A stretch of 63,692 bases of DNA from Candidatus Nitrosopelagicus sp. (lineage in GTDB: Archaea; Thermoproteota; Nitrososphaeria; Nitrososphaerales; Nitrosopumilaceae): the NCBI GenBank assembly GCA_028345965.1, contig JAOMEP010000005.1:1-63692 (forward strand), in the 5' to 3' direction. The position numbers and the translations under genes were made by a program. The notes beneath the pieces were generated by a model, which was given only the letters and a program-made list of their open reading frames with translations, made no database searches and was not told where the DNA came from. Position 1 is the stretch's first letter. Each line of letters begins with the position of its first letter. This document shows positions 32,754-55,187 of this stretch, piece after piece.

Positions 32754-33673
32754 TGAAATTCCTTCTTAATCATTCTAAATAATTTTTCATTATGAGGTTT
32801 GTAAAAATCTATTAAAAATTCTCTAATTTTTTCTTTCATAGGTTCATGTAGAACTTTCTCAACTCCTACATTCTTTCTTTTCACTTTTGTTAATTCTATA
32901 TTTTTAATACCAAAAAAAGTGAATAATGAATTCATTATTTCATCATAGTTATCATCTAATTCTTCTGTTGAATAATGTCTAAATTGATTTTCTTCAAATT
33001 CATCAAACCAATTTTCAAGATTATCAGCATAGAGTCCATGACGTAGATATGAAAATTGTAAATAGTTTACTGAATTCTCATTATTTATTTTCATATCTGA
33101 ATTATCTTTAAGTAAATTCATTCTTTCGATTTCAGCTTCTATCGCATTTTCAAAGCTGGAATGTTCCCATCCATACCTGACAGCATGATTATAAGCAGAA
33201 TATGCTCTGTTAACAGGATTTCTAAAAAAATTAATTAATTTTACATTTGGTAATACTTTCTTTATCCGAGTTGGTGCTGATGGATTGGTCAAATATGTCC
33301 CTGGAGCTTCTCCTACAATTTTGAATTTTGAAATTTTTGTAGGAAAATGTGATCTATACCATGATATAGAATTTATTTCAAAACTCCCATCAAAATAATG
33401 AACTCCTGCATGATCTTTGAAACCTGCACTTATTTCATGATGCTGATTAAGATATGATAAAACACTATATTTTCCAGCTTTGCTGGTACCGATAATTAGA
33501 AAATGTGGTAAAAATCTAATTGAATTTGTTAAGTATCTAAATGTAGAATCCCATGAAAATCGATATGGATTAATTTGTTTATTCTGTAGTAGAAATTTTC
33601 TAGCTGATCCTTTTATTCCCATATGTTTTTCATATTTTTCTAATATTTGAAATTCACTACGACAAAAACTCAC
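32747..33673 (-). CDS. Sulfotransferase family protein
   Basis: Expected to move sulfate from PAPS onto a glycan. The 5' phosphosulfate loop FLIIGTSKAGKYSVLSYLN is at residues 58-76, with Lys where most members have Thr/Ser before the final Ser. The 3' phosphate motif FFRNPVNRAYSAYNH is near residue 148. The 308-residue length and GWEHSSFENAIEAE-type segment resemble heparan-sulfate-type sulfotransferases. The GTG start at 33673 overlaps the upstream stop codon. Middle gene of a three-gene operon. Confidence 0.88.
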   Translation of the reverse strand: MSFCRSEFQILEKYEKHMGIKGSARKFLLQNKQINPYRFSWDSTFRYLTNSIRFLPHFLIIGTSKAGKYSVLSYLNQHHEISAGFKDHAGVHYFDGSFEINSISWYRSHFPTKISKFKIVGEAPGTYLTNPSAPTRIKKVLPNVKLINFFRNPVNRAYSAYNHAVRYGWEHSSFENAIEAEIERMNLLKDNSDMKINNENSVNYLQFSYLRHGLYADNLENWFDEFEENQFRHYSTEELDDNYDEIMNSLFTFFGIKNIELTKVKRKNVGVEKVLHEPMKEKIREFLIDFYKPHNEKLFRMIKKEFQW

Positions 33674-34245
33674 TTTTCATATTGTGTAACTCTCTTTTCA
33701 TCATCACTAAACATTACGCCTACAGTTCTCAATAACAAAACATTATTTTCTTCACAAAATTTGCCTAATTTTTCAATATATTTTTCAAATTCGCTTTTGT
33801 CAATATTTTGTCTAATTATTGATGAAAATAGATCATCATGATCTAACATCATAATTTTTTCATTTTCTCTTAAGGATTCAAAAATTTCTTCTATATTATC
33901 AACTGCATTTGGACTTTCAATCTTTGGAACAATGATTATGTCTTTTGGTAATTTTTCAAGAAACGGTTCCAAGTCTTTCTTTTTTTCAACATTTGATACT
34001 GCAAAATATTTAATCTCAGAATGTGATTCTAATATTGGTATCATTTCGTCTAGAGAATATTTGTTATTTGGTGGTTTTATTCTACCTTGAGGTAAATCTA
34101 AAAAGAATTTAGAATTTTTATCATCAGATAATTTTTTTTCTAATTCATTAAGACTGTTACACCAAGCTAAATTAATTCTTAAAATTGCATCATCTGGTAA
34201 TTTGAAATTATAATGATTTTTTATATTTTGGGAAATCAGGAACAT
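33670..34245 (-). CDS. Miniature pyruvate-kinase-like TIM-barrel protein
   Basis: 191 residues that read like the core barrel of pyruvate kinase without its B and C domains. ILRINLAWCNSLNELEKKL resembles the first barrel strand with its substrate Arg. KFFLDLPQGRIKPP resembles the LDLxGPxIR strand. IIIVPKIESPNAVDNIEEIF resembles IIAKIENxEGVxNIDEI with the catalytic Lys and metal Glu. MMLDHDDLF resembles the metal Asp of GDLG. It may bind PEP or pyruvate, or belong to the related HpcH/citrate lyase group. First gene of the operon with the sulfotransferase and fibrillarin-like genes. Confidence 0.6.
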   Translation of the reverse strand: MFLISQNIKNHYNFKLPDDAILRINLAWCNSLNELEKKLSDDKNSKFFLDLPQGRIKPPNNKYSLDEMIPILESHSEIKYFAVSNVEKKKDLEPFLEKLPKDIIIVPKIESPNAVDNIEEIFESLRENEKIMMLDHDDLFSSIIRQNIDKSEFEKYIEKLGKFCEENNVLLLRTVGVMFSDDEKRVTQYEK

Positions 34246-34292: not shown

Positions 34293-35225
34293 CTAATTAC
34301 TTATTTTTTTTATAAGGGCAATTATATCTCCTTTTGAAACAATTTTAGGATTATTATCTAGATGTTTTTTATCTGTTAAAATTACTTCTGCAGCATCCTC
34401 AATATTCATTTTTAATTTAATTTTTGAAAAATCTAATTTTTCCACTAATTTTTTAAATCGTGAACTAAACTTTGAATCATTAAAATCATGTGCAACGGCA
34501 GTAGTGTATGATAATGCATGTCCATGGGAATACCCTTCATTTGAAAATACATACGAAAGAGCATGTCCTAATGTAGTTGAACAATTCCCAAATCCTAATC
34601 CTGAAATCAATGAACCTAAAACTATTTTTTCCTTATCCATATTCATAATTCCATTTTCTAATAATTGAAATGCATGTTCACACATAAATTTTGTATACTG
34701 ATTCCCATTTTTACTATCAAACCCCTCAGAACATTGTGCAACTGCGTCAATTGCAGAATTTTTTATTATATCGATGGGTGAATCTTCAATAAAATGCGAA
34801 TCTACAATTGCAACGTCCGCAAAAAATTCATCATCATGAAAACTTTTTTTTAAACCATTCACTTTCAAGACTGAAATTCTTGTGACTTCGCTTCCACTTC
34901 CAAATGTAGTTGGAATTAGAATCTTCTTTTTTTGCATTTTTGATGCAACATATTTTGCAACATCTAAGCTACTTCCTCCACCAAGTCCAATTACAGTATC
35001 AATTTCAGAATTAGAAAATTCTGATTGAATGGTATCTATTGTCTCGATAGAGGGATTAGGTATCACATCATCAAAAATATAAGAATTATTTATTCCAAGA
35101 TAGTCAAACCAGCCTCTTTTTTCAGAACCATTAGATGTGATTACTAGTGATTTTTTTGAATATGTGTATTCATTTGCACTATTACAACCAAAAATAATTT
35201 TGTTTGGCTGCTTTATTGTAAACAT
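34293..35225 (-). CDS. Iron-containing alcohol dehydrogenase, probable phosphonoacetaldehyde reductase
   Basis: Group III (Fe-dependent) dehydrogenase of 310 residues. The NAD site is IGLGGGSSLDVAKY near residue 80, TTFGSGSEVT follows, and metal histidines lie in GYSHGHALSY with Asp in DAVAQCSEGF. Divergent by 47 bases from PEP mutase and next to the decarboxylase genes. In phosphonate clusters this family reduces phosphonoacetaldehyde to 2-hydroxyethylphosphonate, and that role is inferred here from context. Confidence 0.85.
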   Translation of the reverse strand: MFTIKQPNKIIFGCNSANEYTYSKKSLVITSNGSEKRGWFDYLGINNSYIFDDVIPNPSIETIDTIQSEFSNSEIDTVIGLGGGSSLDVAKYVASKMQKKKILIPTTFGSGSEVTRISVLKVNGLKKSFHDDEFFADVAIVDSHFIEDSPIDIIKNSAIDAVAQCSEGFDSKNGNQYTKFMCEHAFQLLENGIMNMDKEKIVLGSLISGLGFGNCSTTLGHALSYVFSNEGYSHGHALSYTTAVAHDFNDSKFSSRFKKLVEKLDFSKIKLKMNIEDAAEVILTDKKHLDNNPKIVSKGDIIALIKKISN

Positions 35226-35232
35226 AACGGAA

Positions 35233-35266
35233 TCTAATTTTATAGAATGTTTTTAATACTTAAAAT
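35233..35266. promoter_or_regulatory. Divergent promoter of the phosphonate genes
   Basis: Only 47 bases separate the start codons of the reductase (35225) and PEP mutase (35273). Forward-strand TTTTATAG (35238-35245) is about 28-30 bases before the pepM ATG. Reverse-strand TATTAAAAAC (35258-35249) is about 25-30 bases before the reductase ATG. The two cores nearly overlap, so the promoters are likely to interfere with or be controlled by one bound factor. Confidence 0.45.
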
Positions 35267-35272
35267 TATTTG

Positions 35273-36181
35273 ATGAAATGTCTGTTGTCTAAAAATCATA
35301 GTTTACGTGAAAAATTAGAAAAGAATTCTATAGTAAAAGTTGGAGGCGCTTATGATGCAATGTCAGCTAAATTAGTAGAAACATCTGGCTTTGATGCAGT
35401 TTGGGCCGGAAGTTTTGCAATATCTGCAACACATGCATTACCCGATGCAAGTATTTTGACCATGACAGAATTTTTTGATGTTGCATCAAATATGTCTTCA
35501 ACATGTGAAATACCAATTATTGCAGATTGTGATACAGGTTATGGAGGTCCAAATAATGTCAATCATATGGTAAAAAAATATGAAAATGCAGGAGTATCAT
35601 CAATTTGTATAGAGGATAAAACATTTCCAAAACAAAATAGCCTGCTAGAGAATGGAAAAAATGATTTACTATCAGAAAAAGAATTTGTTGCAAAAATATT
35701 ATCTGCAAAAGAAGCAAGAATTGATAAAGATTTTTTGATCATTGCCAGAGTTGAGGCATTAATTTCAGGTGCAGGAATGAATGAGGCATTGAAGCGAGCT
35801 ACCGCATATGAAAATGCAGGAGCCGATGCTATACTAATTCATTCAAAACAAAAAACTCCGGATGAAATATTTGAATTTACAGAATTATGGAAAGGTTCTG
35901 TTCCAATTGTTGTTGTACCAACAACATATGATAACGTAAAAATTTCAGAATTAGCTTCTCATAAAATTAAAATGGTTATTTATGCAAATCAAACATTACG
36001 TGCTGCACATAATTCAATTACATTATTACTAAAAGAAATGGTTAATTCTGAACGTATTTCCGACATTGATAATAAAATATCTACGATGAAAGATATTTTT
36101 GATTTACAAGAAATGTACAATATGAAAAACAAAGAAAAAGAATTAGAAAATGAATTAAAGAAATTAGGTTATATTAATTGA
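35273..36181 (+). CDS. pepM: Phosphoenolpyruvate mutase
   Basis: Forms the C-P bond by rearranging PEP to phosphonopyruvate, the entry step of nearly all phosphonate synthesis. The diagnostic motif EDKx5NS is present as EDKTFPKQNS near residue 117. DCDTGYGG supplies metal-binding Asp residues, and KVGGAYDAMSAKL is the N-terminal strand of the isocitrate lyase fold. The ATG at 35273 is preferred to a TTG three bases earlier. The gene starts a tight four-gene operon. Confidence 0.96.
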   Translation: MKCLLSKNHSLREKLEKNSIVKVGGAYDAMSAKLVETSGFDAVWAGSFAISATHALPDASILTMTEFFDVASNMSSTCEIPIIADCDTGYGGPNNVNHMVKKYENAGVSSICIEDKTFPKQNSLLENGKNDLLSEKEFVAKILSAKEARIDKDFLIIARVEALISGAGMNEALKRATAYENAGADAILIHSKQKTPDEIFEFTELWKGSVPIVVVPTTYDNVKISELASHKIKMVIYANQTLRAAHNSITLLLKEMVNSERISDIDNKISTMKDIFDLQEMYNMKNKEKELENELKKLGYIN

Positions 36182-36666
36182 AAAAATCGTATCAGGAACA
36201 AATGTTTGATTATTTACATGAAAATGGTATTAAAAATTTTGTCGGTGTTCCCGATTCAACATTAAAAAAATTTATCAAATGTGGATTAGAAAATAATAAA
36301 ATCATCATAACGACTAGAGAAGAAGAAGCAATTGGAATTGCTACGGGAATGCTTTTAGCAAAAAGTCCATCATTAGTCTTCATGCAAAATGCAGGTTTTG
36401 CAAATTCATTAAGTACAATTACTTCATTAGTACAATTATACAAAATTCCTCTAATTTTTTTAATTGGTTGGCGAGGTTTTTTAAAAAATGATGCGCCAGA
36501 ACATACCAAAATAGGACGAATTCAACCTGATTTATTAAAAATTATGGAAATTGATCATAAAATTGTTCAAGATAGTAATTGGAAAAAAATGTGTGATTGG
36601 GCATTAAAAAAATTTCAAAATAATAAATCATGTGCATTGATAATACCGAGGGAATTTCTTGATTAG
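36178..36666 (+). CDS. Phosphonopyruvate decarboxylase, alpha (PYR) subunit
   Basis: 162-residue thiamine-diphosphate enzyme half. It contains the PYR domain with GVPDSTLKKF and TREEEAIGIATGM, where Glu activates the cofactor, and APEHTKIG. Together with the next gene it equals one full decarboxylase, as in split sulfopyruvate decarboxylases. The partnership with PEP mutase makes phosphonopyruvate the likely substrate; decarboxylation pulls the unfavourable mutase reaction forward. A TTG at 36178 overlaps the pepM stop; the first ATG is eight codons in. Confidence 0.9.
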   Translation: MKKSYQEQMFDYLHENGIKNFVGVPDSTLKKFIKCGLENNKIIITTREEEAIGIATGMLLAKSPSLVFMQNAGFANSLSTITSLVQLYKIPLIFLIGWRGFLKNDAPEHTKIGRIQPDLLKIMEIDHKIVQDSNWKKMCDWALKKFQNNKSCALIIPREFLD

Positions 36667-37210
36667 AAACGAAGCTATGCAGATTTTTCTTGAAAAAATC
36701 AAGAAGGATCCAATTGTATCTGCTAATGGTTTCATTAGCAGAGATCTTTTCAATATTCATGATAAAAAAACAAATTTTTATATGATTGGCTCAATGGGAT
36801 TAGCTTCATCAATTGGTTTAGGTATAGCATTAACAATACCTAGGAAAAAAATTTTTGTTTTTGATGGGGATGGTAACATTTTGATGAATCTTGGTTCTTT
36901 AACTACCATCGGTAAATTACAACCAAAAAATTTGATTCATGTAATTTTTGATAATTCAATACATGAATCAACTGGAGGTCAACCAACAAGTTCAAGTATA
37001 ATTTCAATTGCAAAAATTGCAAAGTCATGTAAATACAAAAAAATTTTTACTGCATCTGGCAAAAAAGGAATATTAAAAATTCTTAATACAATTAAAAATA
37101 ATCAAGGTCCAATAATGATTATTGTAAAAATTAAAGGTGGAGGAAATAGTGGTAAGAGGATTTCAATATCACCCGAAAAAATTAAAGACTATTTTATTGA
37201 AGAATTATAA
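36659..37210 (+). CDS. Phosphonopyruvate decarboxylase, beta (PP) subunit
   Basis: 183-residue thiamine-diphosphate binding half. The Mg/TPP motif GDG-x(~27)-N is seen as FDGDGNILMNLGSLTTIG ending in VIFDN, followed by STGGQPTSS. It overlaps the alpha gene by eight bases, pointing to coupled translation and equal dosage. The TTG at 36659 or the ATG at 36677 may be the start. Confidence 0.9.
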   Translation: MIRNEAMQIFLEKIKKDPIVSANGFISRDLFNIHDKKTNFYMIGSMGLASSIGLGIALTIPRKKIFVFDGDGNILMNLGSLTTIGKLQPKNLIHVIFDNSIHESTGGQPTSSSIISIAKIAKSCKYKKIFTASGKKGILKILNTIKNNQGPIMIIVKIKGGGNSGKRISISPEKIKDYFIEEL

Positions 37211-37213
37211 AAC

Positions 37214-37966
37214 ATGAAAATAATTTTTATTGCCGCAGGTTCTTCAACAAGATTAGGAGAAAACACATACAATATTCCAAAAGGTTTGTTAAAAATTAAT
37301 GATAAATCAATTATTGGTAATCAAATTGAATTATTTAAAAAAAAGAATATTGATAATATTGTAATAATTACTGGTCCAAATTCTGACAAGTTTACATTTA
37401 AAAATGTAATATACATTAATGATAAAGATCATAAAAATCATGATGTATTAGGTTCACTAATGGCGGGGGAATCTCAAATGGATGACCAATTAATCACAAC
37501 ATATTCCGATATAATTTTTGATGAAGCAATCTTAGATTCAATAATTAAATTTTCAGGAGAATTTGGAATTGTAGTAGATTTAAACTGGGAAAAAAATTAT
37601 GAGAATAGGAACCAACATCCAAAGAGTGAGGCAGATAATGTTTTAATTAATAATGGAAAAATATTAAAAATTAAAAAAAATATTACGCAGTGCAAAGATA
37701 ATGAAGTTATAGGCGAATTTATAGGAATAATGAAGATATCTGAAAAGGAAATAAAAAATTTTAAAAATGTATTTTCTGAATTAAAAAAATCACATAATGG
37801 AAGATTTCATAATGCGTCATCATTAGAAAAGGCTTACTTAACAGATATGTTACAAGAATTAATTGATTTAGGAGTGAACATATCTCCAATTATCGTAGAC
37901 GGAAAATGGTGTGAAATAGATACACCACAAGATCTTGAAAGAGCTCGAGAAATACTAAATGATTAG
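37214..37966 (+). CDS. Phosphonate/phosphocholine-type CTP nucleotidyltransferase (PntC/LicC-like)
   Basis: GT-A-fold nucleotidyltransferase of 250 residues. The signature IFIAAGSSTRLGENTYNIPK opens the chain, and TTYSDIIFDE carries metal-binding Asp. The segment DLNWEKNYENRNQHPKSEAD is typical of the LicC/PntC group that activates phosphocholine or phosphonates with CTP. The C-terminal KWCEIDTPQDLERA is standard. Last gene of the pepM operon, so it probably makes a CMP-phosphonate donor such as CMP-2-hydroxyethylphosphonate. A sugar-1-phosphate substrate is the alternative. Confidence 0.83.
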   Translation: MKIIFIAAGSSTRLGENTYNIPKGLLKINDKSIIGNQIELFKKKNIDNIVIITGPNSDKFTFKNVIYINDKDHKNHDVLGSLMAGESQMDDQLITTYSDIIFDEAILDSIIKFSGEFGIVVDLNWEKNYENRNQHPKSEADNVLINNGKILKIKKNITQCKDNEVIGEFIGIMKISEKEIKNFKNVFSELKKSHNGRFHNASSLEKAYLTDMLQELIDLGVNISPIIVDGKWCEIDTPQDLERAREILND

Positions 37967-39078
37967 TCTATAAAATGTAACAGTTCATCTGAAAGTTTTT
38001 TTTCAACTTCATTATTTTTACCAATTAAATTATTTTCTTCTTTAGGGTCATTTTCAAGATCATACAATTCTTTAGAATTGTTATGTTCGTTAAGGATTAA
38101 TTTCCATTTTGAATCACGAATAGATTTTGTATTCGGGGTTTTAGGAGGGGCATTTTCATTTAGAGGATTTCCAGTTTCAGAAAATGCAAGTTTTTCAATT
38201 TGTTTTTCACCTTTTATTAGAGGCATTAATGATTCACCATCCAATTTTTCAAAGGAATTATTAATTTGAATGTCTAACATTTCTAGAATTGTTGGCATAA
38301 AATCAATATGTCTTACTTGTGATGAAATTACTTTTGATTTCATATCTGAATTATGAAGGTAAGCAAATGTTTTCAAAGTATAATCATAACAAAATGCACC
38401 ATATGCACGTTCTCCATATTTTTCGCCTATACTAATTCCATGATCAGATAAAATTAGAATTATTGAATTAGAAAGAAATCCTAAATTCTCAATTTTTTTC
38501 ATAACTGATTCTAGATAATTCTCTGCATTATGAAATAATTTTGAGTATCTTTCATAATTTAATTCATGATTATCAAAATATTCATTACTAAAATTATTAA
38601 AAACTTTTAGAACTTCATTACTTATACCAGTATGAATTTTACTGTAATGTAAATATAAGAAAAAATTTTCACCGTTGTCATATCTACTTTTCATCTTATC
38701 TAATAATTCTAAATGCCATTCAACTAAGTTAATTTTTTGTTCATCATGAACATTAAATTCTCTAAAACCAAATTTTGGAATTATTAATTCAGTATGCCCA
38801 TCTGCATACGTATAATAATTTTTTTCAGCTAAATAATCTGCTAATGTCAAAAAATTGTTATTTTTGAATTTATATATATTCCAATAACTGTTTACTCCAG
38901 TTCTATTACCATAACATCCAGAAAGAACTGCATGCATTGCAGCAGTAGTATATGGGGCATACGTAATTGATTGGTTAAACTGTATGATATTAGGTGTTAA
39001 TTTTTTAAAAATGGGAGATTTTTCAGCAAAATCTAATCTACCGCCATCAATTAGAATAATTATCACATTTTTTTTCAT
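37963..39078 (-). CDS. Sulfatase-fold hydrolase/transferase (alkaline phosphatase superfamily)
   Basis: 371-residue soluble enzyme. Metal residues sit in IIILIDGGRLDF near the start and ILILSDHGISIGEKYGERAY in the second half. The nucleophile position in APYTTAAMHAVLSG is Thr, not the Cys/Ser of sulfatases that mature to formylglycine, so a phosphodiester or phosphonate transfer/hydrolysis is more likely than sulfate ester hydrolysis. The C-terminal KELYDLENDPKEENNL is typical of the superfamily. No signal peptide is seen. Convergent with the nucleotidyltransferase. Confidence 0.87.
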   Translation of the reverse strand: MKKNVIIILIDGGRLDFAEKSPIFKKLTPNIIQFNQSITYAPYTTAAMHAVLSGCYGNRTGVNSYWNIYKFKNNNFLTLADYLAEKNYYTYADGHTELIIPKFGFREFNVHDEQKINLVEWHLELLDKMKSRYDNGENFFLYLHYSKIHTGISNEVLKVFNNFSNEYFDNHELNYERYSKLFHNAENYLESVMKKIENLGFLSNSIILILSDHGISIGEKYGERAYGAFCYDYTLKTFAYLHNSDMKSKVISSQVRHIDFMPTILEMLDIQINNSFEKLDGESLMPLIKGEKQIEKLAFSETGNPLNENAPPKTPNTKSIRDSKWKLILNEHNNSKELYDLENDPKEENNLIGKNNEVEKKLSDELLHFID

Positions 39079-39109
39079 AGATTTGAAAATGATTTTCTAT
39101 TTATCAATA

Positions 39110-39134
39110 TTGCCATCAATAAAATTGATGGCAA
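39110..39134. promoter_or_regulatory. Perfect 11-bp inverted repeat, candidate operator
   Basis: TTGCCATCAAT and ATTGATGGCAA flank a three-base AAA spacer, with no mismatch. It sits in the 87-base gap between the divergent sulfatase (start 39078) and dioxygenase (start 39166) genes. It lies just before an ATATTTTTAA promoter-like element located about 25 bases upstream of the dioxygenase ATG. That position suits a repressor or activator site better than a terminator, because no gene is ending there. Confidence 0.55.
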
Positions 39135-39165
39135 GATATTTTTAACTCAAATCAAAAAGATATCT

Positions 39166-39939
39166 ATGAAGGATTTAACTTCTGAAGAAATTGAAGAATT
39201 TAATAAAAATGGATTTTTAGTGAAAGAAAAATTTTTTGATGAAGATGAAATTTTAGAAATTAGAAAGTGGATTTATGAATATAGTGAGAAAAAACCAGAA
39301 GATTGGAAAGAAGGACAAGAAATGGGATATTATGAAACTAGCAAAAATAGTGGAGATAGAATTTTAACACGATTAGAGAATTTTGTAGACTACAATGAAA
39401 ATTTTCATAATTTAGTATATTCTAAAAAAATTATGAACTGTGTGGAAATCTTATTGGGTGAAAAATGTGTATTCTTTAAAGAGAAAATTAACTTTAAGAA
39501 TCCAGGAGGAGCAGGTTTTAAACCACACCAGGATATAATTTCAAGATGGGACGACTATGCTCCTGATTTCATGAATGTCCTAATTGCTACAGATAAAGGA
39601 ACAATTGAAAATGGGTGTTTGGAAGTTGCAGCAGGTTTTCATAACAAAGGATTTCTAGGTCCTTACGATGCGCCAATTCCGGAAGAACGGTTGAAGGAAA
39701 TGACTTTTGAACCATTGAAACATTTCTTAGGCGACGTTGTATTTTTTAATGGTTTTACTCCGCACCAATCAAAAGAAAATAAATCAAATAGTCCACGAAC
39801 AAATCTTTATCTTACTTACAATAAGCTTTCTGATGGAGATCATAGAGAGAAATATTTTGAAAGAAAACGGAAAGAATTACCTCCAGATAATGAACGAGGA
39901 GAAAACTTCAAAGATAGTCCATTGCATGAATACAAATAA
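39166..39939 (+). CDS. PhyH-family 2-oxoglutarate/Fe(II) dioxygenase
   Basis: 257-residue phytanoyl-CoA dioxygenase-type protein. The facial triad is HQD in GFKPHQDIISRWDD near residue 119 and the distal His in FNGFTPHQSKENKSN, with the 2-oxoglutarate Arg in SPRTNLYLTYN. Close relatives hydroxylate small molecules, including 2-aminoethylphosphonate (PhnY*). Given PEP mutase 3 kb away, hydroxylation of a phosphonate headgroup is a reasonable inference, though a sugar or lipid is possible. Confidence 0.87.
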   Translation: MKDLTSEEIEEFNKNGFLVKEKFFDEDEILEIRKWIYEYSEKKPEDWKEGQEMGYYETSKNSGDRILTRLENFVDYNENFHNLVYSKKIMNCVEILLGEKCVFFKEKINFKNPGGAGFKPHQDIISRWDDYAPDFMNVLIATDKGTIENGCLEVAAGFHNKGFLGPYDAPIPEERLKEMTFEPLKHFLGDVVFFNGFTPHQSKENKSNSPRTNLYLTYNKLSDGDHREKYFERKRKELPPDNERGENFKDSPLHEYK

Positions 39940-39946
39940 TTTTGAT

Positions 39947-41293
39947 TCAAATATAGCCTAATTTTTTTAGTTCGTTTGAAATTTTTAGATCATCATCTGT
40001 GGTTTTATCCTCAGTATCACTAAAATCTGATTCAGGAAAACCTGAGAGTGTCATTTCAAAATTTTTAACAATATCTGGAAATTTGTAATTTATGTTATCA
40101 TTTTCAAAAGTATCGTTGATTAAATCAAAAAGATGAACATTTTGAGTTGGAATTCGTGCATGTCTAAAATATTTATATTTTGAGGTTCGAATTCCAACGC
40201 AATCATTTTCAGAAATTTTTTGATGTGGCATTGTGTGTATGTAAATTGGATTTTCAGGAAAAATTCTTCCATTTATCAAAGGCAACAAACTGACACCGTC
40301 AAATTTTGTATTTGACTCCAATTCTAAAATATTTAATATAGTTGGAAAAATATCCACTGCTCCTACCTGTTGAGTAATGATTTTTTTATTAATTTTTGGA
40401 CCATTTATTAACAAAGGTATTTTGATATTCTCATCAAATAAAGAGAGCGTAAAATGTGGTAAACGAGAACGTTTTTCATAATGTGTTAAATTTCTATTTG
40501 CATTTGCTATTCTTACTGCAGCAATACTTTTTCTTAATTTAGATAAAGATTTTCCTCCAATATTTTGAGCAGATTTGGGCAATAGTTTTTTCCCAATTTC
40601 TTTTCCAGTTGTCAAAGGAGGTTCAAATGATACACAATCTTTTTCATCTATAGGTATTTTTTCACCATGATCTGCAGTAATAATTACAATAGTATTTGTA
40701 AGATCAATTTTTTCTAAAATTTTTCCTATCCAATAATCTATGGAAGAGACAATCTTTTCATATTTTGTTGAACCAAATTTTTCAGTATCAAAATTTTCTA
40801 AACCTGTAGGCATAGATCCTTCTCTAATTGCATGAAGATCAAATATATGTAAAAAATAAAACCATGGTTCGCTAAGATTTTTGGAATTTAGAAGTTTTAA
40901 TATTTGAGAACCCGTCTTTTCTAAAGGAATTGTAGGTGGTCCAGGATCATATGTTGGATCCTCATTTTCACATAATTTGATTAAAGATTGAAATGAAGTT
41001 AGATTCGGTAAAAAACCGTAGAAATGATAATTATTTTGAATTAATGTTGAAACTAAATTCTCTTTTTTTAATTTAATTCTTAATTCTCTTGTTCCGATAG
41101 AATTGGGAAATAATCCGTTAATTATGGTATTTAATGATACAATAGTTCCATCTGCAGAACTAATTGCTTGTGAAAAATATGTTCCATTTTTCACCAGAGA
41201 ATCAATATTTGGAGTAATAGATGTTTTTTCAGCATTTTGAAATTGATCACTTCGAAGTGAATCAATTACCAATAACAGGATATTTGGTTTCAT
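39947..41293 (-). CDS. Sulfatase-fold hydrolase/transferase
   Basis: 448-residue member of the alkaline phosphatase superfamily. LLVIDSLRSDQF near residue 6 and IIITADHGEKIP near 210 hold metal ligands, and SSADGTIVSLNTIINGLFP places Thr at the nucleophile position. A C-terminal YKYFRHARIP and HLFDLINDT follow the sulfatase pattern. No signal peptide or membrane segment. Convergent with the dioxygenase. Its Thr nucleophile parallels the enzyme at 37963. Confidence 0.87.
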   Translation of the reverse strand: MKPNILLLVIDSLRSDQFQNAEKTSITPNIDSLVKNGTYFSQAISSADGTIVSLNTIINGLFPNSIGTRELRIKLKKENLVSTLIQNNYHFYGFLPNLTSFQSLIKLCENEDPTYDPGPPTIPLEKTGSQILKLLNSKNLSEPWFYFLHIFDLHAIREGSMPTGLENFDTEKFGSTKYEKIVSSIDYWIGKILEKIDLTNTIVIITADHGEKIPIDEKDCVSFEPPLTTGKEIGKKLLPKSAQNIGGKSLSKLRKSIAAVRIANANRNLTHYEKRSRLPHFTLSLFDENIKIPLLINGPKINKKIITQQVGAVDIFPTILNILELESNTKFDGVSLLPLINGRIFPENPIYIHTMPHQKISENDCVGIRTSKYKYFRHARIPTQNVHLFDLINDTFENDNINYKFPDIVKNFEMTLSGFPESDFSDTEDKTTDDDLKISNELKKLGYI

Positions 41294-48680: not shown

Positions 48681-50645
48681 TTGATTAAAGTCTATAGTTC
48701 TCAATTTAATTTTCAATATGGTGACCAAATACATTTTCCATATAGTGTAGCTAGACTAGCCTCATACATTAAATTTAATACCGATTTAGGTCCTAATTTT
48801 GATTTCAAAAAAACTTTCATTTTTAGAGATGATGTAGAATCATATATTGAATCATGTACTGATTGTGATATTCTCCTATGTTCATGTTATGTATGGAATT
48901 GGGAAATTACAAAATATACAGCTGAAAAAATAAAAAATAAAAATCCAAATTGTTTAGTGATTATGGGCGGACCACAAATTCCAAACCATTCTGAAGAGTT
49001 TTTTAAAAATCATCCATATGTTGACATAATTGTTCATGGTGAAGGTGAATTAGTTCTATCAAATATTTTTAAAGAATATCTAAATGAAAAAAATTTCTTA
49101 CAAATTAAGGGTATAGAGACTAAAGACTTCAAAAATGAACCTGAAGATAGAATAAAAGAACTTGATACATTAGCATCTCCATATCTTACAAATGTTGTAT
49201 GGGACTTGGTAGAAAAAGTACCTAATGTGAATTTTCTTGCTTCTTGGGAAACAAATCGTGGGTGTCCTTATCAATGTACATTCTGTGATTGGGGAAGTTT
49301 AACAAACGCAAGAATGACTAAATGGTCAGAAGATGTTCTCTTTAAAGAGATAGAATGGTTTGCAGATAATAAAATTCCATATGTTGATTGTTGTGATGCA
49401 AATTTTGGAATCTTTCAGAAAAGAGATTTCAAATTAGCTGAAAAATTTAAAGATGAAGCACTAAAAAAAGGATTTCCTGAACGTCTTAGACCTGCATGGG
49501 CAAAATTTTCATCAGAAAAAATTATCCCAATCGCAAAACAATTACAAGAAGGTGGACTATTACGTGCGGTAACTTTGGCATTGCAATCACTTGATGAAAC
49601 AACTTTGGAAATTGTAAAACGTGATAATATCAAATTTGATCAATTCTCTGCATTAACTCAAACTTTTCGTGATAATGGAATTCCTACATATACTGAATTG
49701 ATAATGGGTATGCCTGGGGAAACATTAGAAAGTTGGAAAAGAGGTCTTGAAACATTAGCACGTGATACCAAAATTGGTTCCATCTATATCTATAATTGTG
49801 GTATATTTCCTAATGCTCCGATGAATGAACCTATCTATAGAAAATTACATGAAATCAAAACAGAACGTTCTCCAATTTACTTAGCTCATTCATCAATACA
49901 CAACAGAGGAATGCCAGAATACGAGGATATTGCAGTTAGTACAAAATCATATTCTACTGATACACTAAAAGAAATTTATCTATACTCTTGGCTAATTCAA
50001 ACTTTTCACAGTCTGGGTATATTTGAGTATGTTTCAAAATTCTATAAAATCAATAATGATTTGTCTTATATGGAATTTTATGAAACATTCTTGGAATATT
50101 GTAGAACAAATCAATCTATGTTTTCTGAAGAATATGAAAAAGTTGTAAAATACATTGATGATGGTTATTCTGGTAAGGGTTGGAATTATCATGATCCTCA
50201 ATTTGGTGATATCTATTGGCCAATTGAAGAGGTTACATGGTTAAGATTTACACTTGACAAAAATGAATTACTTCAAGAAACAAAAGCATTCTTGGAATTT
50301 CTTCAAAAGAAATTTGACTATGATATCCATGATGAACTCTTAAATGATTTAGTAAAATTTCAGACATTCTTGATTACTACTAGATCTTCTGAAGAAATGA
50401 AATCTGAAACATTTTCTCACAATTGGAAAGACTATTTCACTACTGAACAAAACTTGAAATCAGTTTCAAAATCATATTATTATAAAAATTTAGTTTTAGA
50501 AAATGAACCAATTGAATGGGGATTTAGAGCAATCTGGTATGGAAGAGGTTCAAAAAATTACAAATACCATCATGAAAAACTTTTTGAACAAAATCTAAAT
50601 GATGATATAAAACATAATGAATCTGAACAAATTCTAAAGTGTTGA
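48681..50645 (+). CDS. B12-binding radical SAM enzyme
   Basis: 654-residue class B radical SAM protein. An N-terminal cobalamin-like domain (about 1-160) has CLVIMGGPQIPNHSEE and VDIIVHGEGE. The cluster motif TNRGCPYQCTFCDWGS is near residue 195 and GMPGETLESWKRG follows. A C-terminal domain of about 280 residues is unusual in length. Members methylate unreactive carbons or rearrange substrates; a glycan or lipid target is inferred from the site. The TTG start at 48681 is supported by an AGGAG about 11 bases before it. Only three bases separate it from the carbamoyltransferase. Confidence 0.9.
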   Translation: MIKVYSSQFNFQYGDQIHFPYSVARLASYIKFNTDLGPNFDFKKTFIFRDDVESYIESCTDCDILLCSCYVWNWEITKYTAEKIKNKNPNCLVIMGGPQIPNHSEEFFKNHPYVDIIVHGEGELVLSNIFKEYLNEKNFLQIKGIETKDFKNEPEDRIKELDTLASPYLTNVVWDLVEKVPNVNFLASWETNRGCPYQCTFCDWGSLTNARMTKWSEDVLFKEIEWFADNKIPYVDCCDANFGIFQKRDFKLAEKFKDEALKKGFPERLRPAWAKFSSEKIIPIAKQLQEGGLLRAVTLALQSLDETTLEIVKRDNIKFDQFSALTQTFRDNGIPTYTELIMGMPGETLESWKRGLETLARDTKIGSIYIYNCGIFPNAPMNEPIYRKLHEIKTERSPIYLAHSSIHNRGMPEYEDIAVSTKSYSTDTLKEIYLYSWLIQTFHSLGIFEYVSKFYKINNDLSYMEFYETFLEYCRTNQSMFSEEYEKVVKYIDDGYSGKGWNYHDPQFGDIYWPIEEVTWLRFTLDKNELLQETKAFLEFLQKKFDYDIHDELLNDLVKFQTFLITTRSSEEMKSETFSHNWKDYFTTEQNLKSVSKSYYYKNLVLENEPIEWGFRAIWYGRGSKNYKYHHEKLFEQNLNDDIKHNESEQILKC

Positions 50646-50648
50646 TTT

Positions 50649-52361
50649 ATGTATATACTCGGATTGTCAGGTTATGCTCATGAATCATCATGTTCATTGA
50701 TTAAAGATGGTGAGATAAAATCTATCATAGAAGAAGAACGTCTTAATCGTGAAAAACATACTTGGAAATTTCCTGTATTATCAATAAAAAAATGTCTAGA
50801 AATGGAAAAAATTTCTATTACTGATATAGATCATTTCACATTTTTTTGGGAACCTAAAAAAGAAATCTCTGGAAATCTTAATCATTTTATTCGTTATTTT
50901 CCTTCTACTTTGAATACGCTTACTGCATCATCTGGAGGTGGTGAAATGAATTCTATGCAAAGAATCAAGGCAATGAAAAATATTGGCAAAGCTTTACAAA
51001 GAGAATTTAATCTATCACATACTCCTCATATTGAATTTATTGAACATCATCTGGCTCATGTTGCAAGCTCATTTTTTGTTTCAGAGTTTGAGAAATCGGC
51101 TATATTGATACTTGATGGTAGAGGAGAATCAATTTCAACTAGTATGTATTATGGAGAAAAAAATAGTATCGAAAAAATATCTGAAACTAAAGTACCACAT
51201 TCTTTAGGGCATCTTTATGCTGCTATAACTGATTTTTTGGGATTCAAACCTTTTTTTGATGAATGGAAAGTAATGGGAATGTCTGCATATGGAAAAGATA
51301 CGTTTGTTGAGAAATTTTCTAAATTGGTAAATTTACAACCAAATGGACAGTTTCACCTAAATCTTGATTATTTTAATTTTCATACGCATGGTTCTAGTAA
51401 ATGGATAAGTGATAATTTTATTAAAGAGTTCGGAGAAAAACGAAAACCAAATTCTGAATATGATCAAAGACATTTTGATATTGCATTTGGTCTACAAAGG
51501 CTTATTGAAAAAATTGGAATACACTTAGCAAATTTTCTATACAAAAAAACAAATGTTTCAAATCTTTGTCTTGCTGGCGGTGTCGCATTAAATGTTTTGA
51601 TGAATCGAGAAATAATTAGAAAAACACCTTTCAAGAATATATTCATTCAACCAATTGCACACGATGCTGGAACATCATTTGGTAGTGCATTATATTTTTA
51701 TAATTATAAGCTAAAAAATGATAGAACTTTTCAATTTGATCATGCGTATTGGGGCCCTGAATATGATAATGATGAAATTGAAACTATTTTGAATGAAACA
51801 AAATTAAATTATCATAAATCTGATAATATTGCATTTGAAACAGCACAACAAATTGCAAATGAAAAAATTGTTGGTTGGTTTCAAGGAAGAATGGAAGCTG
51901 GTCCAAGAGCGTTAGGTAATAGAAGTATTACTGTTAGTCCACTAAAAGCAGAAATGAAAGATAGACTTAATGAACGTGTGAAGAGACGTGAATATTTCAG
52001 ACCATTTGCGCCGTCTATTCTAGAAGAACGTGTTTCTGATTTTTTTGAAATGCCAAATAATCTTAAATCACCATACATGATTCTTTCAGGAGAAGTAAAG
52101 GAAGAAAAAAGAAATATTATTCCTGCTGTTACTCACGCTGATAATACTGCTAGAGTTCATACTGTTAACTCAAAAGTTAACCCCAAATATTGGAATCTTA
52201 TTCATGAATTTGAAAAAATTACAGGCGTTCCTGTTTTATTAAATACGTCATTTAATGAAAATGAACCAATTGTATGTACTCCGAAAGAAGCTGTAAATTG
52301 TTTTCTTAGAACTGATTTCGATATTTTATCTATTGGAGATTTCATAGTAAACAAAACTTAA
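50649..52361 (+). CDS. Carbamoyltransferase (NodU/CmcH family)
   Basis: Transfers a carbamoyl group from carbamoyl phosphate via carbamoyl-AMP to a sugar hydroxyl. The N-terminal ASKHA-like domain starts ILGLSGYAHESSCSLIKDGE, HHLAHVASSFF carries the catalytic-site His residues, and LAGGVALNVLMNREI follows. The C-terminal YrdC-like part has MEAGPRALGNRSI and FRPFAPSIL. 570 residues, typical. Translationally linked to the radical SAM gene upstream. Confidence 0.95.
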   Translation: MYILGLSGYAHESSCSLIKDGEIKSIIEEERLNREKHTWKFPVLSIKKCLEMEKISITDIDHFTFFWEPKKEISGNLNHFIRYFPSTLNTLTASSGGGEMNSMQRIKAMKNIGKALQREFNLSHTPHIEFIEHHLAHVASSFFVSEFEKSAILILDGRGESISTSMYYGEKNSIEKISETKVPHSLGHLYAAITDFLGFKPFFDEWKVMGMSAYGKDTFVEKFSKLVNLQPNGQFHLNLDYFNFHTHGSSKWISDNFIKEFGEKRKPNSEYDQRHFDIAFGLQRLIEKIGIHLANFLYKKTNVSNLCLAGGVALNVLMNREIIRKTPFKNIFIQPIAHDAGTSFGSALYFYNYKLKNDRTFQFDHAYWGPEYDNDEIETILNETKLNYHKSDNIAFETAQQIANEKIVGWFQGRMEAGPRALGNRSITVSPLKAEMKDRLNERVKRREYFRPFAPSILEERVSDFFEMPNNLKSPYMILSGEVKEEKRNIIPAVTHADNTARVHTVNSKVNPKYWNLIHEFEKITGVPVLLNTSFNENEPIVCTPKEAVNCFLRTDFDILSIGDFIVNKT

Positions 52362-54032: not shown

Positions 54033-55187
54033 CTATTTTTCATTAATTTGAAGTATATTCAATATATTTTCAATTCCAATATCAGAAGAATTACCTAAAT
54101 TAAATACTATATTTTCTCGTACATCTTTTATTTGTTCTTGATATTTTCCTTTTTCATAAATTATTTTTTCCAAAATTTCAGCAATTTGTTTAATATCATT
54201 TGGAGAAACAACCTTTCCAATTTTTTCTCTTGTTGTAATTTCAATAGGTATATCTAAAAATTTTGTAGCTTCTGGATTAAACTCTTTTTTTGGTACATCA
54301 ATGAAAATAATTGGTTTTTCATGAGTAAAAGCATACTCAAATGATATTCCTGACCAATCTGAAATTAAACACTTTGAATTCTGAAATTTTTCAAAAGGAA
54401 TTACCCCTTCATGAAAAATAAAATTCGAATTTTCTAAAAATTTATTTTTAATTGAGTTGATTAATTCTGGTGAATCTCTAATTATTCTAAAGTGTGGTCG
54501 TAAAAAAATTTTATATCCGTTTTCTAATAATTTTGAAATCAATTCTATTCCACATTTTTCAAGAAGATTATCTTTTCCATATGAAGGGGTTATCAAAATC
54601 AATTTTTCATTATTTCTTTCATGAGTAAATTCTTGTTTTTTCTCCAATAATGTATCTAATCTGCCAAATCCATATTCCACAAGTTGTTTTGGTTCTAAAT
54701 TATATTCTTTTTCTGTCATTCTAATTTCATTTATGTGGTGAGGTCCTACACAAAAAATTGTATTATAATTATCAAGTGCATCTTTTCTAAGATATGAATG
54801 AGTACTAAACATTGAATGGAATATGTAAATATAATGAACTGGATAAACTTTAGATCTTTTAATATGAAATGTATCTAAATCTGGCATATCCATTATCAAG
54901 ATTTTTGCTTTTAGTGTAAGAAAAAATTTTGTTCGAGTTACTCCATCTCCAATATAAAATGTTTTTATATTTTTATCATTCTTGTTTAAAATTGGATCAT
55001 TTTCTACTGATGTAACGTAACAAATTTGAAGTTTTTTTTCTTTTGTTAATTTGGTAATTAAATTCTGAAAATGATTCATAGATGCAATATTTTCTGCATA
55101 AAATACTATAGATTTTTCTTCCATAGGTAATTTTTCAAATTTTTTTAGTTCCTTCCACTCTTTTCCAAAATTAAAATTTAATTTCAT
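54033..55187 (-). CDS. CDP-glycerol glycerophosphotransferase-like (TagB/TagF family)
   Basis: 384-residue GT-B-type enzyme. IYIFHSMFSTHSYLRKDALD and KCLISDWSGISFEYAFTHEK are characteristic: the latter is the C-terminal CDP-binding SDxSS motif region with the adjacent YxF. Canonical members transfer glycerol phosphate from CDP-glycerol onto a lipid-linked sugar. In this island the donor could instead be a CMP-phosphonate made by the nucleotidyltransferase at 37214. That is an inference only. Convergent with the membrane enzyme at 52414. Confidence 0.85.
   Translation of the reverse strand: MKLNFNFGKEWKELKKFEKLPMEEKSIVFYAENIASMNHFQNLITKLTKEKKLQICYVTSVENDPILNKNDKNIKTFYIGDGVTRTKFFLTLKAKILIMDMPDLDTFHIKRSKVYPVHYIYIFHSMFSTHSYLRKDALDNYNTIFCVGPHHINEIRMTEKEYNLEPKQLVEYGFGRLDTLLEKKQEFTHERNNEKLILITPSYGKDNLLEKCGIELISKLLENGYKIFLRPHFRIIRDSPELINSIKNKFLENSNFIFHEGVIPFEKFQNSKCLISDWSGISFEYAFTHEKPIIFIDVPKKEFNPEATKFLDIPIEITTREKIGKVVSPNDIKQIAEILEKIIYEKGKYQEQIKDVRENIVFNLGNSSDIGIENILNILQINEK

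Follow-up and report, generated by a model that had tools for sequence, protein, structure and literature searches.

A variant of the archaeal phosphonate cassette without methylphosphonate synthase, and a proposed route to surface-bound 2-hydroxyethylphosphonate

We describe a phosphonate locus in an ammonia-oxidising, Candidatus Nitrosopelagicus-type archaeon of the open ocean, which is a variant of a known archaeal phosphonate cassette without methylphosphonate synthase (MpnS); such MpnS-less cassettes are a recurring class in the family. The locus lies on one contig of 63.7 kb, the whole stretch of DNA that was analyzed (here called the window), from a 1.0-Mb assembly that is 72% complete. 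On balance, we consider it probable that CMP-2-hydroxyethylphosphonate (CMP-HEP) is made by this archaeon and attached to a surface glycan.

The open reading frames of positions 34293-39939 lie where the first-pass annotation of the window had placed them, and its interpretation as a HEP-type cassette was right in outline, with PepM, a split phosphonopyruvate decarboxylase, an Fe-type reductase and a cytidylyltransferase (CTase) all present in one cassette; the weak part was the TagB/F-like protein named as a partner. A comparison of the family genomes shows that the gene order is common to about 20 relatives, and it is thus not due to chance. The constant part in these relatives comprises the reductase, PepM-PpdA-PpdB-CTase and a gene for an alkaline-phosphatase-superfamily protein, referred to here as the sulfatase-fold protein. 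Downstream of this part some relatives carry MpnS, others a B12/radical-SAM protein together with a NUDIX protein and a second CTase, and others neither; the window carries a PhyH-type dioxygenase.

The PepM (phosphoenolpyruvate mutase) gene at 35270..36181 on the plus strand encodes a protein with a PEP_mutase match of 6.9e-58, which scores 196 bits against PF13714 and 304 bits against TIGR02320, slightly below the cut-off of 319.6. Its closest solved structure is the PEP mutase 5unc (5.6e-78), and the EDKx5NS motif that had been read in it is present as EDKTFPKQNS. The phosphonopyruvate decarboxylase profile TIGR03297 is spread over two adjacent reading frames on the plus strand, PpdA (alpha half, 36178..36666, profile positions 1-155) and PpdB (beta half, 36659..37210, positions 171-357); both halves of the TPP enzyme are present, and the split is kept in relatives including N. 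maritimus. The Fe-type phosphonoacetaldehyde reductase (PhpC-like, 34293..35225, minus strand; PF00465, 4.5e-29), whose second NCBIfam match is the phosphonate Fe-ADH PsrA, is kept across the cassettes; Gln replaces His after the ligand Asp in the window protein, and likewise in 19 of 19 aligned archaeal relatives. A second PEP-mutase-like protein, encoded on contig C3, was rejected as a PepM because EDKx5NS is missing from it. The search for PhnW gave no match above the cut-off in the 72%-complete assembly (best score 124 bits against 400.8), and the control genomes fell below the cut-off too.

Several observations on neighboring genes and on other PepM loci accompany this core. The pyruvate-kinase-like small barrel at 33670..34245 on the minus strand (191 aa), in which the RxN, LD and KIE motifs are kept and the other kinase domains are absent, occurs in the islands of several genomes, some of which have PepM and some of which do not; since it is found in 8 of 22 PepM genomes and 7 of 26 others, we do not link it to PepM and rejected it as a pathway enzyme. 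At L011:9980-10882 a divergent PepM (53%) keeps the motif, has no Ppd genes nearby and is followed by a DegT-like aminotransferase-type gene, and may possibly serve a different phosphonate. L012:6356-8216 is a decaying cassette with an interrupted PepM and no Ppd seen, and a single genome (G161, contigs C43 and C97) holds two PepM cassettes, both without MpnS.

The lack of mpnS in the window, already remarked on in the first-pass annotation, extends to the rest of the sequenced genome. The query was the N. maritimus SCM1 (G087) protein, which matches the 6b9s entry from end to end; neither the window nor the remainder of the 72%-complete assembly gave a match to it at E<=1e-20. Among 250 family genomes, MpnS was found with this query in 11. 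PepM was found in 22, of which 10 also have MpnS and the majority has no detectable copy. Five genomes of that majority are near-complete (G024, G118, G131, G138 and G161), and the absence is therefore not a quirk of one fragment. In nine of the ten genomes with both genes, mpnS lies within about 6 kb of pepM on the same contig. G065 is the exception, with mpnS on a separate short contig, where a copy of the sulfatase-fold gene lies on each side of it. These figures bear on the explanation that methylphosphonate is made after all, by an mpnS located in the 28% of the genome that the assembly lacks, and that the CTase activates methylphosphonate. The incomplete assembly leaves room for an unlinked gene such as that of G065, and the nearest PepM, which is sister to that of the window in the tree (L003, support 99/97), comes from an MpnS genome; yet close linkage to pepM is the usual state, the G065 copy is itself flanked by a sulfatase-fold gene, the corresponding region here is intact, with no mpnS in 63.7 kb, and the window CTase groups with those of MpnS-less cassettes. 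We judge this explanation improbable.

The CTase (37214..37966, plus strand; NTP_transf_3, 8.7e-10) is LicC/PntC-like, and we propose that it acts on HEP or a derivative. Its assignment to the phosphonate pathway, made at first from the window, is borne out by a panel of 49 genomes, in which it is present in all 22 with PepM, in G031, where it lies beside MpnS, and in 1 of the 26 others. The closest solved structures are LicC (3.9e-22) and then PntC (9.3e-18), with which the catalytic residues D99 and E234, unchanged across 20 sequences, align. In PntC and LicC the substrate amine is contacted by Glu104 and Asp105, respectively, Glu104 touching the amine of AEP (PMC6697681); the window CTase has Tyr97 at this position, and the aligned archaeal CTases have Tyr or Phe. 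The replacement of the acidic contact argues, as far as the alignment goes, against AEP or phosphocholine as the substrate and does not prove HEP, against which it may be said that sugar nucleotidyltransferases, too, usually have an aromatic residue there. Thr95, found in four MpnS-less sequences (window, L004, L109 and L110) and replaced elsewhere by Ile/Val or another residue, might touch the HEP hydroxyl; this stays a hint because Thr95 is absent from L115 and L116.

The CTase and the sulfatase-fold protein co-vary with the tailoring gene. Where the tailoring gene is shared, identity exceeds the PepM-based expectation by 4.2 points for the CTase and 5.3 points for the sulfatase-fold protein (0 of 5000 label shuffles, which ignore relatedness among genomes), and PpdA, PpdB and the Fe-ADH show no co-variation in the same test. 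With the comparison confined to MpnS versus none, the effect is 2.4 points for the CTase (p=0.051) and 2.7 points for the sulfatase-fold protein (p=0.004). The PepM, PpdB and Fe-ADH of the window are nearest to those of the MpnS-bearing L003; the three nearest relatives of its CTase are all MpnS-less (60.8, 57.7 and 54.6% identity, with L003 at 47%), and it groups with that of the MpnS-less L004 in the tree (support 91/96). L006 and L010, one with MpnS and the other with the radical-SAM gene, are 92% identical in PepM, 43% in the CTase and 48% in the sulfatase-fold protein. On the CTase tree the MpnS label takes 5 changes against 7.3 expected (p=0.07), or 4 against 7.0 (p=0.024) when the decaying L012 is left out, a signal that is no more than suggestive; on the PepM tree there is none (7 changes against 6.6 expected). 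The fact that CTase identity follows the tailoring gene at a given PepM identity suggests that the CTase recognizes the headgroup in its finished form. Exchange of the whole block through linkage could by itself produce the same co-variation, since the tailoring gene, the CTase gene and the sulfatase-fold gene are neighbors, yet PpdB, which is equally close to the CTase, shows none.

The PhyH-type Fe(II)/2-oxoglutarate dioxygenase of the window (39166..39939, plus strand; PhyH, 4.6e-22) occupies the place that mpnS has in relatives, with a sulfatase-fold gene on either side. The second of these genes (39947..41293, minus strand), recognized by its Pfam match and motif, encodes a protein that likewise has Thr at the nucleophile position. 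The placement of PhyH raises the possibility that it hydroxylates HEP, with 1,2-dihydroxyethylphosphonate as one example of the product; the step could precede or follow cytidylylation, and the headgroup would then be a tailored HEP. The Fe ligands HxD...H align with those of EctD, the best NCBIfam model is the methylphosphonate hydroxylase PhnY (NF052437), and no PhnZ-like HD gene was found in the assembly with one query, a single empty search that shows little. The PhnY match, however, is non-discriminating: the window protein, which has no HD neighbor, scores 152 bits against a curated cut-off of 500, PhyH proteins in non-phosphonate contexts (beside RiPP maturase or nif genes) score 130-184, and two neighbors of an HD-domain (PhnZ-like) gene score 258-261, and we rejected the score as evidence that the window protein is PhnY. 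Nor does the gene recur with PepM; one genome among the 250 of the family and one among 398 of the phylum carry it, so that it was probably acquired, and no relatives were found among phages and viral contigs. PhyH may tailor HEP or act on another product of the island, and we regard a hydroxylated headgroup as unlikely.

The sulfatase-fold protein encoded beside the CTase (37963..39078, minus strand; identified by Pfam, a structural model and motifs) had been named as a candidate transferase from the window alone, and its distribution strengthens that candidacy: the gene is present in 19 of 22 PepM genomes and, at lower identity, in 4 of 26 others, and it abuts the CTase gene in 16 of 17 loci. 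One copy, in a decaying cassette, is split by a stop (L112:2364-3487). The predicted structure (pLDDT 83, pTM 0.89) matches sulfatases over the whole length (Z 32.7), followed by LtaP (30.0), phosphonate monoester hydrolase (29.5) and YejM (28.1). Thr44, invariant in 17 orthologues, stands at the position of the sulfatase formylglycine Cys/Ser, as judged by motif spacing; the Cys/Ser-x-Pro-x-Arg motif of formylglycine (S1) sulfatases is missing, with T-T-A-A-M in the window protein, and the DHG motif (D212-H213) is conserved. A putative Thr nucleophile with DH metal ligands is the combination expected of LtaS/EptA-type transferases. The protein contains no hydrophobic stretch that would mark a membrane segment (maximum KD19 1.38) and is predicted to be cytosolic.

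The TagB/F-like glycerophosphotransferase encoded 16 kb away (54033..55187, minus strand) had also been put forward as a transferase. It could be that the CTase acts on methylphosphonate or HEP, that this or another enzyme carries out the transfer, and that the sulfatase-fold protein has a hydrolytic or editing role, as its best fold match to sulfatases would allow. TagB/F genes do adjoin CTase genes in G168, G079 and G057 and lie near one in G087, but the window protein belongs to a subgroup that is not paired with the CTase, its gene is present in only 7 of 22 PepM genomes, and a 65% identical protein occurs in the complete, PepM-less G052; we rejected it as the dedicated transferase. Set against the regular pairing of the sulfatase-fold gene with the CTase, transfer by another enzyme appears rather doubtful.

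The same pairing occurs outside the PepM cassettes. A divergent CTase gene abuts a sulfatase-fold gene in N. maritimus SCM1, at a locus some 455 kb away from pepM (L146:2148-7187; G087:C1, about 600-605 kb), and in G038, which has no PepM (L145:5010-10080). Next to the pair, both loci encode a PEP-utilising kinase, which scores 996 and 832 bits against NF004508, and a protein resembling gamma-glutamyl-CDP-amidate hydrolase, with 121-125 bits against NF045546, below the cut-off of 250. We take the kinds of gene at these loci to be those of the Campylobacter phosphoramidate pathway. That pathway has a glutamine kinase (PMC6429109), and the glutamine-kinase-like, hydrolase-like, CTase and Thr-type sulfatase-fold genes form a possible archaeal phosphoramidate headgroup pathway. 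Because the sulfatase-fold gene partners two different activated phosphorus headgroups, we propose that its product is a headgroup transferase. More tentatively, and as something possible rather than probable, the CTase and the cytosolic Thr-type protein may form a general headgroup attachment module in marine ammonia-oxidising archaea, which would take HEP, methylphosphonate, a radical-SAM-modified phosphonate or phosphoramidate, activate it with CTP and transfer it to surface glycans, would be exchanged together with the tailoring enzyme, and would make marine HEP esters in MpnS-less lineages. If this is true, the sulfatase-fold protein would represent a new class of CMP-phosphonate:glycan transferase.

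In L007, L008, L009, L010 and L112 the core cassette is followed by B12/radical-SAM, NUDIX and second CTase genes, a possible branch toward a C-modified phosphonate with Fom3-like logic. The window, too, encodes a protein with B12-binding and radical SAM domains (48681-50645), which is KedN5-like by its best model and is followed by a carbamoyltransferase (48681-52361 for the pair). C-methylation of CMP-HEP by this protein, as by Fom3 in fosfomycin biosynthesis, would accord with its domains and with the related proteins beside the CTase at those five loci; but it is only 27-28% identical to them and lies 11 kb distant, and with the KedN5 match and the carbamoyltransferase next to it we hold such a role to be highly improbable.

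In the pathway that we infer, PepM would convert PEP to phosphonopyruvate, PpdAB would convert phosphonopyruvate to phosphonoacetaldehyde, and the Fe-type reductase would reduce this to HEP, which would not be cut to methylphosphonate because MpnS is missing. The CTase would turn HEP or a close derivative into a CMP ester, from which the cytosolic sulfatase-fold protein would take the phosphonyl group onto Thr44 and hand it on to a growing glycan, so that HEP esters would form on a putative surface polysaccharide or glycoprotein acceptor. Methylphosphonate is a source of ocean methane, and PepM alone is often taken as a sign of methylphosphonate, and hence of methane, in these archaea, a practice on which the many family PepM genomes without detectable MpnS bear directly. 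In marine high-molecular-weight organic matter the abundant phosphonates are HEP esters together with methylphosphonate esters, and HEP esters release ethylene, not methane, when C-P lyase degrades them (PMC5649143, PMC8931226). We found no paper naming an archaeal source of marine HEP esters; the cassette offers candidates for the attachment steps, both for the phosphonate substrate of the CTase and for the transferase.

The closest known system is the methylphosphonate cassette of N. maritimus SCM1, which has the same core genes in the same order, including the split Ppd, the CTase and the sulfatase-fold neighbor (PepM 65%); the window differs in lacking MpnS, with PhyH in its place, and in a CTase that is 46-47% identical and belongs to another subgroup. 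PntC (6pd1) and LicC (1jyk) share the catalytic Asp and Glu with the window CTase, whereas the archaeal CTase gene is stand-alone and its product has Tyr/Phe in place of the acidic residue near the AEP or phosphocholine amine (PMC6697681). The first half of fosfomycin biosynthesis (Fom1, Fom3), in which the Fom1 CTase makes CMP-HEP (PMC6697681), shares the HEP to CMP-HEP logic of the proposed pathway, although the window CTase belongs to the MobA-like family (PF12804) rather than to PF01467 and is unfused to PepM. With S1 sulfatases, LtaS/LtaP and YejM-type transferases the sulfatase-fold protein shares its whole fold; it differs from S1 sulfatases in lacking CxPxR and from LtaS/EptA-type transferases, whose exported domain is anchored in the membrane, in having no membrane segment. 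Its Thr nucleophile position and DHG motif are features that we take to resemble those of LtaS-type transferases.
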